A DNA stretch of 64,000 nucleotides from Verrucomicrobiota bacterium. Lineage in GTDB: Bacteria > Verrucomicrobiota > Kiritimatiellia > RFP12 > UBA1067. The notes under the pieces are model-generated. The model had not been told where the DNA came from and ran no database searches. It was given only the letters and a program-made list of their open reading frames with translations. The position numbers were made by a program, and so were the translations under genes. The stretch spans positions 1 through 64,000 of the forward strand of contig JAHFSX010000027.1 in NCBI GenBank assembly GCA_023269675.1, in the 5' to 3' direction. This document shows, one piece after another, positions 18,411 to 26,083 of this stretch; position 1 is the first letter of the stretch, and each line of letters begins with the position of its first letter.

Positions 18411-21400
18411 ATGAAGTCTCTTCAGTTGGATCGGAGTCTCTTTTTCGCACTCGCTTTTCTCGTCGTCAATGCGGGCGGCTGGTGGTGGGTCAAATCGGGG
18501 GACCACGGGCAGAGGACGGAGCACAGAGGACAGAGAGCGGAAGACGGGGAGCCCGCGCCGGTCTTGAAGCCGCTGGCGGTGGTGAGCCTGGAGCAGGTCG
18601 CGCTCAGTCCGGAACGGCTCCAGACCCTTGCATTCACGTTCACCGGGCCGGTCGACTGGCCGTCTTTCGCCGACCGCCTTAAGCTGACCGCCGACAGCCA
18701 GCCGGTCGCCTGGCGCTTCGTCGGCAAGAACCGGGGCAACGCCTGTCAGGTCCAGACGCAGGGGGCGGTGCGCGCCGACCGCGTCACGGTGCGGATCGAG
18801 GCGGGCGTCAAACCCGGCTCGCCCGATTTCGCGGCGCTGGACGTGCCCGTGGCGCAGACGGTGCCGGTTGTGCCCGAGTTCCTGTTCGCGAAGCTCGCGG
18901 CGGAGACGCCGGCGTTCGGGCAGCCCGTGGTCACCGCCCGCTTCACGCAGATGGCGGACGCGCGCGGGGCGTCGTCGTCGATCGTCTGTTCGCCGCCGGT
19001 TCCGTATACGCTGGCGCCGGATCAGTGGGGCAACGGGCTGCGCCTGACGGGGCCGTTCGCGATCGGCACAGCCTACACCTTCACCTTCAAGTCGGGCCTG
19101 CGTTCGCGTTTCGGCCACCGGCTGGAGAAGGAGGTCCGGCGCACGGTCCTGATCCGCCACCGCGACCCGAGCCTCTCGATCCCGGTCGAGGGCCGCTATC
19201 TCGCCCCCGAAGGGGAGCTCACGGTGCCGGTGCTGGCGGTCAACGTGACCAATGTGGTGAGCTCGCTTGCCCGGGTCTTGCCGCAGAACCTGGTGCAGTA
19301 CGCCATGCGCGAGGCCGGGCTCTACAGCGGCTGGTGGCGCACCGAAGCCTCCGAGTTGTCGCAGGAGCTGACCCTGCGCGCGGAGGTCCGCACCAACGTC
19401 GTGACGGCGGCGCGCGACCAGGAACAGCGGCTGATGCTGCGCCTGCGCGAGTACGGGCAGGCGCCGCTGCGCGGGGTCTATGTCCTGAGCGTGAGCGCGC
19501 CGGACGTGCGTGAGCGCAGCCGGCTGGTGTGCGTGACCGATATCGGCCTCAGCGCCCGCCGCGACGAGGCGGCCGTGACGGTTTGGGCGACCGGCCTGCG
19601 CACGGGCCTGCCGCTGCCGGACCTTGGCGTGGACCTGTACGGCCGCAACAACCAGCTGCTGGCGCACGGCACCAGCGACGCCCAGGGCCTGGTCAGGCTG
19701 GACCGCAGGGCGGAGGACGCCGAGCCGTTCCTGGTCTTGGCGCAGACCGCGGACGGGCGGGACATGGCGGCGCTGCCGCTCACGGGCGGCAACGAGGTGG
19801 ATCTGCAAAACGCGGCGGCGCGCGATTATCTCGCGCCCGAGGCGTGCGAGGCGTTCCTGATGAGCGACCGCGACATCTACCGTCACGGCGAGCACGTTTT
19901 CGTGCAGGCGCTGCTGCGCAAGCGCGACGGGCGTCCGCCCGCGCCTTTCCCGGTGGTGCTGCATGTGATCAAGCCGGACGGCCGCACATTCAAGACGTAT
20001 CCGCTGATGCCCGACGCGTTAGGCGCGGCAATGACTCAGGTTACGCTGCCGGAATATTTGCCCTCGGGCACATACGATTTCGAAGTGCGCCTGCCGGGCG
20101 ACGGTGCGGTGCTCGGGCGGCACTCGGTCATGCTGGAGGCGTTCGTGCCCCCGCAGATCCGCGTCAAGCTGCTGGAGCTGCCAGCGTCGGTCCGCGTGGG
20201 CGCGGAGCTGTCGTTCAAGATCTTTGCCGAGCACCTCTTCGGCAAGCCTGCCGGCGGGCTGGACGCCGAGGCGGGGCTGATCTTCTCGGAGTCCGGATTC
20301 AAGCCCGCGGAGTGGCAGGGCTACCGTTTCGGCGACGCCGAAAAGAGCCTGTCCATGAGCCGGAAGGATCTGCCGCGGCAAACGCTGGCCGCGGACGGCA
20401 CGGGCACCTTCGCGCTGAAGGTCGCGGTGGACGGGCTGCCGCCGGCGCAGGTCAAGGCCGTGGTGCAGGCTCTGGTGACCGAGACGAGCGGACGGGACAT
20501 CGCGGCGCAGGCGACGGTGATCATCGATCCTTACCCCTTTTACATCGGACTCAAAACCGGCGACGAGCGGGTCATCCGCGCGGGCACACCTAGGACGATC
20601 GCGCTGGCGGCGGTGAATCCGGACGGTTCGCGCCGACTTGAGAAGACGCCGCTGGAGGTGCGGATCGAGCGGGTCGACTGGGTGAGCAGCCTGCGCAAAG
20701 ATCCCTCCGGCAGCTACCAGTGGGAGAGCGAGCGCGTCAAGTCGCCGGTCTCGGAGGCCAAGGCCGAGGCCGGTCCCGAGGATACGGCGTATACCTTTTC
20801 GGTCGCGGATACGGGCGACTACCTGGTCACCTTCACCGACCCGGTGTCGCGCGCCTCGACGAGCTGGGCGTTCGCGGCGGGCGAGGAAGGTCAGGCCGCG
20901 GGCAACTGGGACCGCACCGCTCCCGATCGCATCGAGCTGGTTTTCGACAAGCCCGACTATCGGCCCGGCCAGACGGCCCGCCTCCAGCTGCGCGCGCCCT
21001 TCGCGGGGCAGGCGTGGGTGTCCCTGCACAACGCGCGGATCCTGGAGAACCGCGTCGTGGCGTTCACGAACAACACGGCCACGCTGGCGTGGGCGGTGAC
21101 TGAGGCGTTTGCGCCGAACGTGGAGGTCGCCGTCAGCCTGGTGCGGCCGGCGGTGGCCGAGAGCGTCTGGAGCGCGCACCGGGCGTCGGGCGAAGCGGTC
21201 CTGCGGGTGATGCCGCCGGAGCGGAAGCTGACCGTGAAGGTGGCGGCCGGCGCGGAGGTGTGGCGGCCGAAGAGCACCTTGCCGGTGCGCGTGTCGGTCA
21301 CCGACGCGGCCGGGCAGCCCGCGCGCGGCGCGGCGCTGGCGGTGCTGGCGGTGGACGAGGGCGTGTGCCTGCTCACCGACTACCGGACACCCGATCCCTA

Positions 21401-23510
21401 CGGCTTCTTCATGGAGGCGCGCTCGGGGAATTTGGCGTTTTACGACGTGTACCGGAACCTGATGCCGATCACCAGCGACGCCATGTTCGGGGCCGCTTCG
21501 CACATTGGCGGCGACGGCGGGGATGAGATGCTCAAGCGGCTCAACCCGGTGGCGGCGCGCCGCTTCAAGCCGCTGGCGCTGTGGCAGGCCAACGTGCGGC
21601 TGGACGACGCGGGCACGGCGACCGTGCCGTTCGACATTCCCGAGTTCGCGGGCGAGCTGCGGCTGATGGCGGTGGCGTGGAACGCGCAGGCGGTGGGCTC
21701 GGCCTCCGCGCCCGTCAAGATCAAGCGCCGGCTGGTGGTGCAGCCCGACCTGCCGCGCTTCCTCGCGCCGGGCGACCGGGCGTTCGTCCAGCTGGCGCTG
21801 CACAACGAGAGCGGCGAAGCCTGCGCGGCGCGCGTGTCGCTGCGGACGCAAGGGCCGGTAACGTGCGATGCGGCCGTCACGGAGGTGCCCTTGAAGGCCG
21901 GCGAATCGGTCACCGTGCCGCTGGCGGTCAGCGCGCGCGAACAGGCGGGGACGGCGCAGGTGTTCGTGCGGGTCGAGGGCGCGGGCGAGGTTTACGAAGA
22001 GCCGATCGAACTGGCGGTGCGCCCGGCCTCGGCCCTGCGCGTGACCGCGGAGTACGGCGTGGTGCGGCCCGGCGAGGAGCGGTCGTACGCGCCGCCGCAG
22101 GGGGTGATGGAGGAGAGCTTCAGCCAGACCTTTTCCTGCTCGTCGCAGTCTTCGGTCAATTTGCTCGGCGCGCTGGATTATGTGGTGAGCTATCCCTACG
22201 GCTGTCTGGAGCAGACGGTCTCCTCGGCCCTGCCGCTGTTGGCGCTGGGCGAACTGGCCGGACGGCTGCCGGCGCGGGAGAGCACGCTCGCGCAGGAGTC
22301 GCCTGACCGCATCAACGCCGCGATCCTGCGGGTGCTCGCCATGCAGCGCTGGGACGGCTTCGCGATGTGGCCGGACGTCTGGGAAAGCAACCCGCAGGCG
22401 ACCGTGTACGCGGCGTTCTTTCTGGTGCAGGCGTCCCAGGCCGGCTACGCGCTGCCTAAAGAGGTCCTTCCCGAAGTGCTCAAGGGGCTGCGCACGCGGC
22501 TGCCCGACGGAGACGGCGCGTCGCGCGCATACGTCTGTCACGTCCTGGCGCTGGCGGGGCAGCCTGAACACGCGTGGATGCTGCGCCTGTACGAAGAGGT
22601 TGAATCGATGAAACGGGAAGACCGGTTCCATTTGGCGCGCGCGCTGATCCGTTCCGGCGAGGTCGATAAGGGCCGCGAACTGCTGACGCAGACGCAGTCG
22701 GTCAAGGGGCTGCGCGAGGCGGCCTTCGCGCTGCTCGCCTGGCTGGAGCTGGACCCCAAGAATCCCTTTGTGGCGGTGTGCTGTCGGGAGATCGAGCAGG
22801 CCCGCCGCGACGAAGGGCGCTGGGGCTCCACGCAGGACAACGCGCTGGCGCTGTTGGCTCTGGGCGAGGTCGCGCGGCAGACGCCGGAAGAGCCCAAGCT
22901 TTTCGAGCCGACCCTGCTGTGGGCGGATCAGACGCGGAGCGCGGCGGCCACCAACGCGTACACGTGGCTGCCGGGCAAGGAGGCTGACCGGGGCGCGGTG
23001 CGGCTGCGCAACAAGGGGCCTGGCCCGATGTACGTGGCGCGGCGCGTGTCCTGCGTGCCGCTCGCCGCGAACGAGCCGGCGGCCGACGCGGGGCTGGCTG
23101 TCCGGCGCGAGTGGCTCGATCGGCAGGGCGTGCCGGTTGATCCTGTGACGCTGCGGCGCGGCGACGTGGTGGTCGTGCGGCTGACGCTCGATCCGCTGGC
23201 TCAGGAGTGCAAGGACGTGGTGGTCGAGGACCTGCTGCCCGCGTGCCTGGAGATCGAGAACGCGCAGCTGGCGACCACCGGCGGGTTGCAGTGGATCAAG
23301 GATGACGAGGCCGAGTGGGTGCTGCACCGCGAGGTGCGCGATGACCGGCTGCTGCTCTTCGGCAAGGCCATTTCCGGAAAGGCGTGCTTCCATTACGCGG
23401 CGCGGGTGGTGAGCCCTGGCGTCTTTGTCGTGCCGCAGGTCTCCGCCTCGGCGATGTATGATCCCGCGACGTTCAGCCGCCATGGCCTCGGCCGCGTGAC
23501 GGTGAAGTGA
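18411..23510 (+). CDS. Bacterial alpha-2-macroglobulin (YfhM-type) with CLEQ thioester motif
   Basis: This 1,699-residue periplasmic protease trap starts with an uncleaved signal or membrane anchor (SLFFALAFLVVNAGGWWWV) rather than a lipobox. A short simple-sequence linker follows, then a series of macroglobulin beta-domains (for example DRDIYRHGEHVFVQALLRKR). In the thioester domain, YGCLEQTVS provides Cys1265 and the Gln that form the internal thioester. The C-terminal receptor-binding-like domain follows. GGGAGGA precedes the ATG. It lies directly upstream of pbpC; this yfhM-pbpC pairing is well known, the trap inhibiting proteases that breach the envelope while PbpC repairs the wall. Confidence 0.93.
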   Translation: MKSLQLDRSLFFALAFLVVNAGGWWWVKSGDHGQRTEHRGQRAEDGEPAPVLKPLAVVSLEQVALSPERLQTLAFTFTGPVDWPSFADRLKLTADSQPVAWRFVGKNRGNACQVQTQGAVRADRVTVRIEAGVKPGSPDFAALDVPVAQTVPVVPEFLFAKLAAETPAFGQPVVTARFTQMADARGASSSIVCSPPVPYTLAPDQWGNGLRLTGPFAIGTAYTFTFKSGLRSRFGHRLEKEVRRTVLIRHRDPSLSIPVEGRYLAPEGELTVPVLAVNVTNVVSSLARVLPQNLVQYAMREAGLYSGWWRTEASELSQELTLRAEVRTNVVTAARDQEQRLMLRLREYGQAPLRGVYVLSVSAPDVRERSRLVCVTDIGLSARRDEAAVTVWATGLRTGLPLPDLGVDLYGRNNQLLAHGTSDAQGLVRLDRRAEDAEPFLVLAQTADGRDMAALPLTGGNEVDLQNAAARDYLAPEACEAFLMSDRDIYRHGEHVFVQALLRKRDGRPPAPFPVVLHVIKPDGRTFKTYPLMPDALGAAMTQVTLPEYLPSGTYDFEVRLPGDGAVLGRHSVMLEAFVPPQIRVKLLELPASVRVGAELSFKIFAEHLFGKPAGGLDAEAGLIFSESGFKPAEWQGYRFGDAEKSLSMSRKDLPRQTLAADGTGTFALKVAVDGLPPAQVKAVVQALVTETSGRDIAAQATVIIDPYPFYIGLKTGDERVIRAGTPRTIALAAVNPDGSRRLEKTPLEVRIERVDWVSSLRKDPSGSYQWESERVKSPVSEAKAEAGPEDTAYTFSVADTGDYLVTFTDPVSRASTSWAFAAGEEGQAAGNWDRTAPDRIELVFDKPDYRPGQTARLQLRAPFAGQAWVSLHNARILENRVVAFTNNTATLAWAVTEAFAPNVEVAVSLVRPAVAESVWSAHRASGEAVLRVMPPERKLTVKVAAGAEVWRPKSTLPVRVSVTDAAGQPARGAALAVLAVDEGVCLLTDYRTPDPYGFFMEARSGNLAFYDVYRNLMPITSDAMFGAASHIGGDGGDEMLKRLNPVAARRFKPLALWQANVRLDDAGTATVPFDIPEFAGELRLMAVAWNAQAVGSASAPVKIKRRLVVQPDLPRFLAPGDRAFVQLALHNESGEACAARVSLRTQGPVTCDAAVTEVPLKAGESVTVPLAVSAREQAGTAQVFVRVEGAGEVYEEPIELAVRPASALRVTAEYGVVRPGEERSYAPPQGVMEESFSQTFSCSSQSSVNLLGALDYVVSYPYGCLEQTVSSALPLLALGELAGRLPARESTLAQESPDRINAAILRVLAMQRWDGFAMWPDVWESNPQATVYAAFFLVQASQAGYALPKEVLPEVLKGLRTRLPDGDGASRAYVCHVLALAGQPEHAWMLRLYEEVESMKREDRFHLARALIRSGEVDKGRELLTQTQSVKGLREAAFALLAWLELDPKNPFVAVCCREIEQARRDEGRWGSTQDNALALLALGEVARQTPEEPKLFEPTLLWADQTRSAAATNAYTWLPGKEADRGAVRLRNKGPGPMYVARRVSCVPLAANEPAADAGLAVRREWLDRQGVPVDPVTLRRGDVVVVRLTLDPLAQECKDVVVEDLLPACLEIENAQLATTGGLQWIKDDEAEWVLHREVRDDRLLLFGKAISGKACFHYAARVVSPGVFVVPQVSASAMYDPATFSRHGLGRVTVK

Positions 23511-23681
23511 ACGACAAGCCCGCCGCCTGCGGAGCGGGAACAAACGAGAGGGTAACTTTTTTAACGATTAAGATTACGATTACGAAGGTTGCCGATCCCT
23601 CTTAAGCCTAATCTTGCTCTTGATCGTAATCCGTTTGAAGTTATCGACAAGCTGAATTTGACGGGGAGTGTCGCTTTTGCA
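23511..23681. repeat. Intergenic gattac-type simple repeat between alpha-2-macroglobulin and pbpC
   Basis: An AT-rich low-complexity segment near 23565-23640 contains GATTAAGATTACGATTACGA and, about 40 bases on, TCGTAATC, the complement of GATTACGA. The two arms could pair. No ORF or clear promoter is seen. It looks like one of several degenerate short-word repeats in this genome. Confidence 0.35.
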
Positions 23682-23748
23682 TGGAGGGCGAGACTTTGTC
23701 GAGCTGCAGGGCGGTGCGCAACGGCTCGCGGGGACGCTCGCCCTCCAG
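23682..23748. repeat. Palindromic element, intergenic copy upstream of pbpC
   Basis: TGGAGGGCGAG at the left end and its exact complement CTCGCCCTCCA at the right end bound a 67-base element. The same half-sequences recur inside pbpC at 25197-25276. The copy lies between the alpha-2-macroglobulin and pbpC genes and overlaps the spurious N-terminal extension of the pbpC ORF. Confidence 0.7.
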
Positions 23749-23779: not shown

Positions 23780-26083
23780 GTGAAACAGGGATGGCAAAAA
23801 CGGTTCTTTAAGACGCTCCTGTGGCTGGTGGCCGCCGGCGCGTGCTTAGCCGTCGTCCTGTGGATCGGGTGTCCGCCGCCGTTGGCGGACGCGGCGCGCT
23901 ATCCGGCGGGGGTGATCCTGCGCGACCGCGCGGGACAGGTGCTGCGCGTGGGACTCGGCCCTGGCGATGCGGATTGCCGTCCGCATTATCGCGCCTCTTT
24001 CGACGACTGGATCGTGCAGGCGGTGATCGCCGCGGAGGACAAACGCTTCGCCTCGCACGCGGGCGTCGACTTCGGGGCGCTGGCGCGCGCGGCATGGCAG
24101 AATCTCTCGTCGCGCCGCCGCATCTCGGGCGCGTCCACCCTCACCATGCAGACGGTCCGGCTGATCCGACCGCACCGCCGCACGTGGCCGTGGAAAGTGG
24201 TGGAGTCGGTGCAGGCGCTGCGGCTGGAGCGCGCTTGGTCGAAAGAGGAGATCCTGAGCCAATACCTCAACCGCGCGCCCTTTGGCTCGAATCTCGTGGG
24301 CGTCGAGGCCGCCGCGTGGGGCTGGTTCGGCAAGTCGCCACGCCAGCTCAACCTGTCCGAAGCCGCGCTGCTGGCCGGGCTGCTCCAGTCGCCCACGCGC
24401 TTCCGTCCCGACCGCTACCCGGCGGCTGCCCAAAAACGCCGCGTCTACGTGCTGGAGCGGATGGAGCAGCTGGGGATGATCGGTCAGCGGGCGCGCGAAG
24501 CGGCCGCCCATGAGCCGCTGGTCTTGCGCCGCGCGCCGCGGCCCTTCCTAGAACCGTATTTCTGCGACTGGGTGCAGAAGGCCACGTGCGTCGAGTCGGG
24601 CGACCACACGACCACGCTTGACCCCGTGCTGCAGGACGCGGTGAAAGGCCGCGTCGCGCGCCAAGCCGAGGCACACGGGGTCGATGCCGCCGCCGTGGTG
24701 CTGGAGGTCAAGACCGGCGCGGTGCGCGCGATGGCCTGTTCCGGCGACTACTTCGCCAAGCCCGACGGCCAGGTCAACACGGCGGCCATGCCGCGGCCGG
24801 CGGGGTCGACCCTGAAACCGTTCGCCTACGCGCTGGCCATGGACCGCGGCCTGCTCACGCCCGGCTGGGTGCTGGCCGACGTGCCGCGCCGCTTCGGCAA
24901 CGACGCGCCGCTCGATTTTTCGGGTTCGTTCATGGGACTCGTGACCGCGCGCGAGGCGCTGGTGCTCTCGCTCAACCTTCCTGCGATCGAAGTGGAGGAG
25001 CGTGTGGGCCAGCCGCTCTTCTACGCGACCTTGCGGCAGCTCGGGCTGGACGCTCTCGACCGGCCCGCGGCACATTACGGCCTGGGGCTGGTGCTGGGCA
25101 ACGGGTCGGTCCGCCTGATCGAGCTGGCGAACGCCTACGCCTGTCTGGCGCGGGGCGGCGAGCGGCGGCCTTGGTGCTGCTTCGCGGAACCGGGCGGCGG
25201 CTGGCGGGGACGCTCGCCCTCCAGGCGCGGCCCAGCGGCCGGTATCGTGATGGAGGGCGAGACTCGGTCGAGCCGCGGGTCCGCGCCTTCCGGGACGCGC
25301 GTTTTTTCCGAGGGGGCGAGCTGGCTGGTGGCGGAGATGCTGAGCGGCGGCGAACGGGCGCAGGATGCGGTGGGACACAGCGCGGAGGTCGGGCTGCCGC
25401 GCTTCGCGTGGAAAACCGGCACGTCGTCCGGCTTCCGCGACGCTTGGACCGTGGCGTGGAACCCTGATTACGTGGTGGCGGTGTGGTGCGGTTTCAAGGG
25501 CGGCCAGCGCGGGCCCGCGTCGCTGGTCGGCAAGAAGATCGCCGCGCCCGTGGCATGGGAGATCATCCGCCACCTTTACCCCGCCGGCGGCGCGCCTTGG
25601 TACGCGCGGCCGGCGGCGGTGGTCGAGCGCGACGTGTGCGCGCTTTCGGGTCGGGTCGCGGGACCGCTCTGCGAACGTCGGCTGCTCGACCTGTCGCTGA
25701 GCCAGTGCTCCTCGTGCGGGATCTGTCCCGTGCATGCGCGCGACGTCTCTGGGGCGCTTCAGGCGCGCTGGCCGCCGGAGGTCGCGGCGTTTCTGGAGGC
25801 GCGTGCGCGCGGCACCGCACCGGCGGGCGGCGGGCTGCGGATCGCGTCGCCGGCGGACGGAACGGTGGTCCGGCTCGTCGACGGCCTGGCCTCGCAGCAG
25901 ATCGTCTTTAAGGTGTCGGGCGCGGCGGGCAGCTCGCCGCTTTACTGGTTCCGTAACGATGTGCTGGAGCATACGGGAACGGCCGGCGCGCCCTTCTTCT
26001 GGAAGCCGGAGCGGGGGACGCACAGCTTCGTATGTTCCGACGTCAACGGTGCGACCGCCTCTGTGACGGTCCGCGTGGAGTGA
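23780..26083 (+). CDS. pbpC: Penicillin-binding protein 1C (bifunctional glycosyltransferase/transpeptidase)
   Basis: This 767-residue inner-membrane enzyme has a signal anchor (LLWLVAAGACLAVVLWIG), a GT51 glycosyltransferase domain (AAEDKRFASHAGVDF has the catalytic Glu; ASTLTMQ follows), and a transpeptidase domain with Ser343 in GSTLKPF, SLN in LVLSLNLP and KTG in WKTGTSSGF. A BiPBP_C domain ends the protein. The start is the GTG at 23780, nine bases after AGGA; the upstream ATG at 23681 lies in a repeat element. An in-frame palindromic element occupies about residues 473-499, between SLN and KTG. The gene follows the alpha-2-macroglobulin gene, as in yfhM-pbpC loci. Confidence 0.93.
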   Translation: MKQGWQKRFFKTLLWLVAAGACLAVVLWIGCPPPLADAARYPAGVILRDRAGQVLRVGLGPGDADCRPHYRASFDDWIVQAVIAAEDKRFASHAGVDFGALARAAWQNLSSRRRISGASTLTMQTVRLIRPHRRTWPWKVVESVQALRLERAWSKEEILSQYLNRAPFGSNLVGVEAAAWGWFGKSPRQLNLSEAALLAGLLQSPTRFRPDRYPAAAQKRRVYVLERMEQLGMIGQRAREAAAHEPLVLRRAPRPFLEPYFCDWVQKATCVESGDHTTTLDPVLQDAVKGRVARQAEAHGVDAAAVVLEVKTGAVRAMACSGDYFAKPDGQVNTAAMPRPAGSTLKPFAYALAMDRGLLTPGWVLADVPRRFGNDAPLDFSGSFMGLVTAREALVLSLNLPAIEVEERVGQPLFYATLRQLGLDALDRPAAHYGLGLVLGNGSVRLIELANAYACLARGGERRPWCCFAEPGGGWRGRSPSRRGPAAGIVMEGETRSSRGSAPSGTRVFSEGASWLVAEMLSGGERAQDAVGHSAEVGLPRFAWKTGTSSGFRDAWTVAWNPDYVVAVWCGFKGGQRGPASLVGKKIAAPVAWEIIRHLYPAGGAPWYARPAAVVERDVCALSGRVAGPLCERRLLDLSLSQCSSCGICPVHARDVSGALQARWPPEVAAFLEARARGTAPAGGGLRIASPADGTVVRLVDGLASQQIVFKVSGAAGSSPLYWFRNDVLEHTGTAGAPFFWKPERGTHSFVCSDVNGATASVTVRVE
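25197..25276. repeat. Palindromic element inserted within the pbpC coding sequence
   Basis: GCGGCTGGCGGGGACGCTCG opens the left arm, which ends CCCTCCA, and TGGAGGGCGAG opens the right arm, which ends GAGCCGC. They are inverted relative to each other across a 26-base loop. The arms are near-identical to the two halves of the element at 23682-23748, in the opposite order. The pbpC frame stays open through it, encoding an Arg/Gly/Ser-rich stretch (GWRGRSPSRRGPAAG) not expected in a PbpC. Confidence 0.7.

Follow-up and report, generated by a model that had tools for sequence, protein, structure and literature searches.

A palindromic stretch at positions 25197 to 25276 of the window (the whole analysed stretch of 64,000 nucleotides from a Verrucomicrobiota bacterium) lies within pbpC, which raises the question of what kind of element has entered this gene, how it arrived there and what it does to the protein. 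A sequence-only reading had suggested that the reading frame continues through the insertion, that both arms match the halves of an intergenic element upstream, and that the case is comparable to the Rickettsia palindromic elements (RPEs). The analysis presented here indicates that the insert is, very probably, a REP (repetitive extragenic palindrome) doublet in inverted arrangement, from a GGAG-headed family of the type that RAYTs (REP-associated tyrosine transposases) mobilise, and that it was gained in a common ancestor and is tolerated in a variable loop.

The host gene encodes a PBP1C, as the product combines the three domains listed in Table 1 with the SxxK, SxN and KTG motifs, including the invariant residues S343, K346, S397, N399, K545, T546 and G547 (numbered from the GTG at 23780, the start inferred from homologues). 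As proposed, the insert falls between SLN (residues 397-399) and KTG (residues 545-547), and the frame is indeed open throughout, producing a loop about 27 residues longer than that of the nearest insert-free orthologues. The pbpC frame can also be entered 33 codons earlier, from an ATG at position 23681 that starts one base ahead of the intergenic REP, and gene callers may annotate a spurious REP-derived N-terminal extension of PbpC from this ATG.

Table 1. Location of pbpC and of the repeat units within and upstream of the gene (window positions).
Feature	Position	Strand	Evidence
pbpC, bifunctional penicillin-binding protein 1C	23780..26083	+	Pfam Transgly PF00912, Transpeptidase PF00905, BiPBP_C PF06832; homologues
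REP unit, B type (TGGAGGGCGAGCGTCCCCGCCAGCCGC on - strand), within pbpC	25197..25223	-	covariance model, 41.7 bits, E=1.1e-8
Spacer, 27 nt, between the two head-inward units in pbpC	25224..25250	.	doublet layout
REP unit, A type (TGGAGGGCGAGACTCGGTCGAGCCGC), within pbpC	25251..25276	+	covariance model, 36.3 bits, E=5.7e-7
Intergenic REP unit, A type, left half of head-outward doublet	23682..23707	+	E=2.3e-5
Intergenic REP unit, B type, right half of head-outward doublet	23721..23747	-	E=7.2e-10

Both arms were recovered with a covariance model, which puts one unit on each strand. The B-type unit is translated in pbpC as GGWRGRSPS and the A-type unit as MEGETRSSR, and the spacer between them is similar to that of another head-inward doublet in the genome (C17:27423-27504). 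The suggested match to the intergenic element holds at the level of the repeat family and fails at the level of the composite, as the GGAG heads point inward in pbpC and outward in the intergenic doublet, with the order of the arms reversed. Thus, the two doublets belong to one family, but the one in pbpC is no copy of the intergenic one.

The repeat unit comprises 26-27 nt and occurs in two types, A (TGGAGGGCGAGACTCTGTCGAGCCGC) and B (TGGAGGGCGAGCGTCCCCGCGAGCCGC). As a single-mismatch motif search restricted to the window gave a weak signal (7 matches versus 2.5 expected), the whole genome of 6.3 Mb was searched. The exact core TGGAGGGCGAG occurred 78 times, compared to 5 occurrences of a reversed control pattern, and the covariance model identified 91 units at E<=0.05, most of them intergenic and several in frame within genes. 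The sister species harbors at least 150 units, and the family is present in 10 of 115 genomes of the taxonomic family, spanning 5 genera. The units of this genome occur as 33 singles, 15 head-inward doublets, 11 head-outward doublets and 2 same-strand pairs, and the 26 inverted doublets are usually composed of one A and one B unit. In 9 of the 11 head-outward doublets the gap is 12-14 nt, and inverted doublets with such a preferred spacing are the hallmark of REPINs/BIMEs. According to a codon model, about 50 of the 61 groups are located outside genes; dispersed, mostly intergenic, imperfect palindromes of 20-40 nt in high copy number correspond to REPs in the broad sense.

Each unit begins with the GGAG head, which is followed by 3 bp, a GA/GA mismatch, another 3 bp and a loop of 3-4 nt, resulting in a 6-bp stem. 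The head is invariant among 38 distinct units, and in the alignment of these units 98.7% of the cells pair, a count that is slightly biased toward structure by the N padding introduced by hand into A-type units; a first MAFFT alignment had been dropped since it misplaced the stem gap. The middle pair was found as CG, AU, GC or UA, and covariation scored 0.435 compared to 0.121 for shuffled alignments (reached in 0 of 500 shuffles) and at most 0.095 for slid controls. When single units were folded by MFE, they were no more stable than their shuffled versions, and the hairpin claim therefore rests on covariation. The unit consensus lacks stop codons in all six frames. Long unit variants with about 30 extra loop nucleotides, which are themselves palindromic, occur at two loci (L018 and L019, position 1501; G000:C15:62284 and 67829).

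Homologues of PBP1C from about 70 genomes, for the most part carrying Kiritimatiellae or Verrucomicrobia labels, were compared. The element was found in the pbpC loop of this genome and of its only genus mate (L034, identical to G011), and was absent from the other approximately 69 homologues, so that the insertion is specific to this lineage. From the NAYACLA motif to KTG, this species has 87 residues and the sister 92, with a median of 58 among 71 sequences. The sister loop carries a head-outward A-B doublet and the window a head-inward B-A doublet. The A unit is at the aligned position in both species, and the flanking indels of 21, 24 and 12 nt are all multiples of three. The simplest reading is that an ancestral array was trimmed or rearranged by in-frame indels in each lineage, although independent insertions in the two species are also possible. 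Outside the insert, dN/dS between this species and the sister is 0.18, and pbpC is under purifying selection. In the AlphaFold model of PBP1C (mean pLDDT 84), the sole segment below 50 comprises residues 471-501, covering the REP-encoded residues 473-499, and the insert is thus predicted to be a disordered loop. The REP pair adds a floppy loop of 27 residues, an insertion which the enzyme evidently tolerates.

The scan of all unit groups with the codon model, which had been trained on the window, showed that at least seven other genes of this genome, and probably an eighth, also contain units in frame. The hosts are oligopeptidase A, a GH42-like enzyme, an EboE-like TIM barrel, an FGE-sulfatase protein, three large proteins without assigned family and, probably, a phosphopantetheinyl transferase. 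For oligopeptidase A, the empty site is seen in the solved homologues 4ka7/4ka8 and in relatives, and the insertion is common to the sister. The GH42-like copy is common to the sister and G012, the EboE-like copy and a copy on contig C65 are common to the sister, and a copy on C18 and a doublet on C46 occur in this genome only. Thirteen of 14 in-gene units are read in three hydrophilic frames (EGERPREP, GSRGRSPS and AARGDARPP/AARQSLAL), with the units within a doublet not being independent. Three further in-gene hits of 20-24 bits (C46:105272, C20:57239 and C24:165605) were set aside as chance coding matches. With pbpC and seven or eight more genes at hand, the distinction between tolerated and useful loops becomes testable.

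If RAYTs mobilise this family, a cognate gene might be expected next to its REPs. Searches for Y1_Tnp/RAYT identified 8 RAYT-like genes in this genome, none of them bordered on both sides by a GGAG-headed REP. Near the RAYT-like gene on C15, a single divergent unit was located at a distance of about 350 nt. In the sister genome, no RAYT flanked by the GGAG-headed REP was found either. For this genome, the absence is weak evidence, since its MAG is 94.8% complete. At seven inspected RAYT-like loci (L031, L032, L033, L104, L105, L107 and L114) each gene is flanked by a different repeat family, indicating that the genome hosts many parallel REP systems. RAYTs flanked by the TGGAGGGCGAG-type REP do occur in the relatives G113, G007, G015 and G030, and with a variant in G006, all within one RAYT group. 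For the GGAG-headed REP, neither a transposition event nor a preference for particular targets was observed. The units would be hairpin elements of single-strand DNA, short and non-autonomous, of the type that RAYTs mobilise, and a RAYT now absent from or unassembled in this genome may have moved the doublet into pbpC before this species and its genus mate diverged. The insert probably survives there because its length preserves the frame, the unit is free of stops in six frames, and the loop between SxN and KTG is variable. The encoded peptide would have no function of its own.

Many RAYTs of the relatives carry their own REPs in frame within a single loop, located between HuH motif and Tyr helix, and in 13 of 13 RAYTs in which this loop reaches at least 20 residues the loop DNA matches the flanking repeats. 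RAYT loci with in-frame REPs of their own, mostly in this loop, are L249, L251, L254, L257, L260, L261, L265, L266, L268, L272, L273 and L276, with the REPs differing between the RAYTs. At L274 and L278, RAYTs of another group contain REP-encoded VAPRPP repeats in a different, N-terminal loop. RAYT genes with own in-frame REPs are not new, as REP insertions inside tnpA-REP genes have been described for subclass 2.4 (PMC6006769). The likeness to this subclass is in the insertion pattern; that study does not describe the pattern for Kiritimatiellae, whereas the genomes here are Kiritimatiellae-like and their REPs GGAG- and GGGAGGG-headed.

The comparison to RPEs stands as far as a palindromic repeat is inserted in frame into protein-coding genes. 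The identity with RPEs does not, as the element is REP-type, GGAG-headed and linked to RAYTs in relatives, whereas RPEs are reported to be CGTC-tagged and without dedicated transposase; the unit here ends in TGGAGG and GAGCCGC, with no CGTC tag at one end. Being lineage-specific and multicopy, with other in-frame copies and a disordered loop, the insertion nevertheless works like that of an RPE. The further suggestion of a comparable case in a PVC bacterium is borne out, and it has a PVC precedent. In Di Nocera et al. (2013; PMC3733652), in-frame REPs are reported for Rickettsia and Opitutus terrae, including intragenic GTAG-tagged REPs such as that in uvrA of the latter. The O. terrae REPs are likewise 20-40 nt palindromes forming inverted dimers, which add 20-30 residues in frame to unrelated proteins of a PVC host; they differ by their GTAG head, and the host gene here is a PBP1C, while the main text of that paper makes no mention of penicillin-binding proteins. 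As the GTAG-tagged REP superfamily is defined by a GTAG or GTGG head, the GGAG-headed family is not filed within it. The family shares with REPINs/BIMEs (Bertels and Rainey, 2011, PMC3116915; Nunvar et al., 2010, PMC2817692) inverted doublets of two unit types, dispersal in intergenic space and linked RAYT genes (here in relatives), but has a non-canonical head, head-inward doublets as common as head-outward ones and no RAYT flanked by the same REP found in the genome. Compared to the E. coli REP bound to TnpA-REP (PMC8266576, structure 4ER8), a four-base head is likewise found immediately 5' of a stem that contains a conserved mismatch, but the mismatch is a tandem GA/GA in a 27-nt unit instead of AA/GC in 29-37 nt. 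The pbpC case is thus a further example of a known but little-studied kind of in-frame REP, now with a GGAG head. It is a well-resolved case of a mobile hairpin that became a protein loop, with empty sites in relatives, a different arrangement in the sister, purifying selection and a structural model.

Counted against the involvement of a RAYT is the head itself, which is GGAG compared to the GTAG/GTGG of published RAYT substrates. The REP might instead have come into pbpC through homologous recombination or gene conversion, with another copy of the repeat as partner. The intergenic doublet 1.45 kb upstream is a possible donor, and shared in-gene units are closer between the species than synonymous sites predict, with 7 synonymous differences observed versus 15.7 expected (P=0.003), a signal that is only suggestive due to ascertainment bias, as the analysed units were chosen for still matching the model. 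However, conversion requires a copy already at the site, of which the insert-free homologues show none, and the pbpC doublet is arranged opposite to the putative donor, so that we regard this route as unlikely. In-gene units may also be more than inert passengers, in that selection maintains them or RAYT action or conversion keeps returning them to the consensus of the family, a suggestion that we put forward tentatively and consider rather doubtful. In that case, the loops of PBP1C and oligopeptidase A would evolve together with a mobile repeat.

That the insert is kept for a function, with its peptide binding a partner or the mRNA hairpin slowing or tuning PbpC translation, appears quite improbable. 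It does persist in two species whose proteins are 80% identical, the sister also carries several of the other intragenic copies, and the frames used are almost exclusively the hydrophilic ones. However, both arrangement and peptide of the pbpC insert differ between the two species, the segment is predicted to be disordered, and occurrence of the same peptide in unrelated proteins indicates tolerance. Chance similarity or ordinary low-complexity coding sequence can practically be dismissed: although short GC-rich words recur in this GC-rich genome and the search of the window gave little more than expected, the genome-scale E-values of 1e-8 and 6e-7, the excess of exact cores, the compensatory changes in the stem and the lack of the element in orthologues outside the genus all argue against it. 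A REP doublet gained by the common ancestor and tolerated in the loop therefore is the reading that we prefer.

Two further features were observed upstream of pbpC. The protein encoded by the preceding gene (window 18411-23510) has 1699 residues and a CLEQ motif, and we take it to resemble the bacterial alpha-2-macroglobulins that are presumably often paired with pbpC. Between the two genes, a second intergenic repeat composed of GATTACGATTAAGATTACG-like words occupies positions 23558-23632, and it recurs elsewhere in the genome, at the loci L017, L018, L019 and L026.
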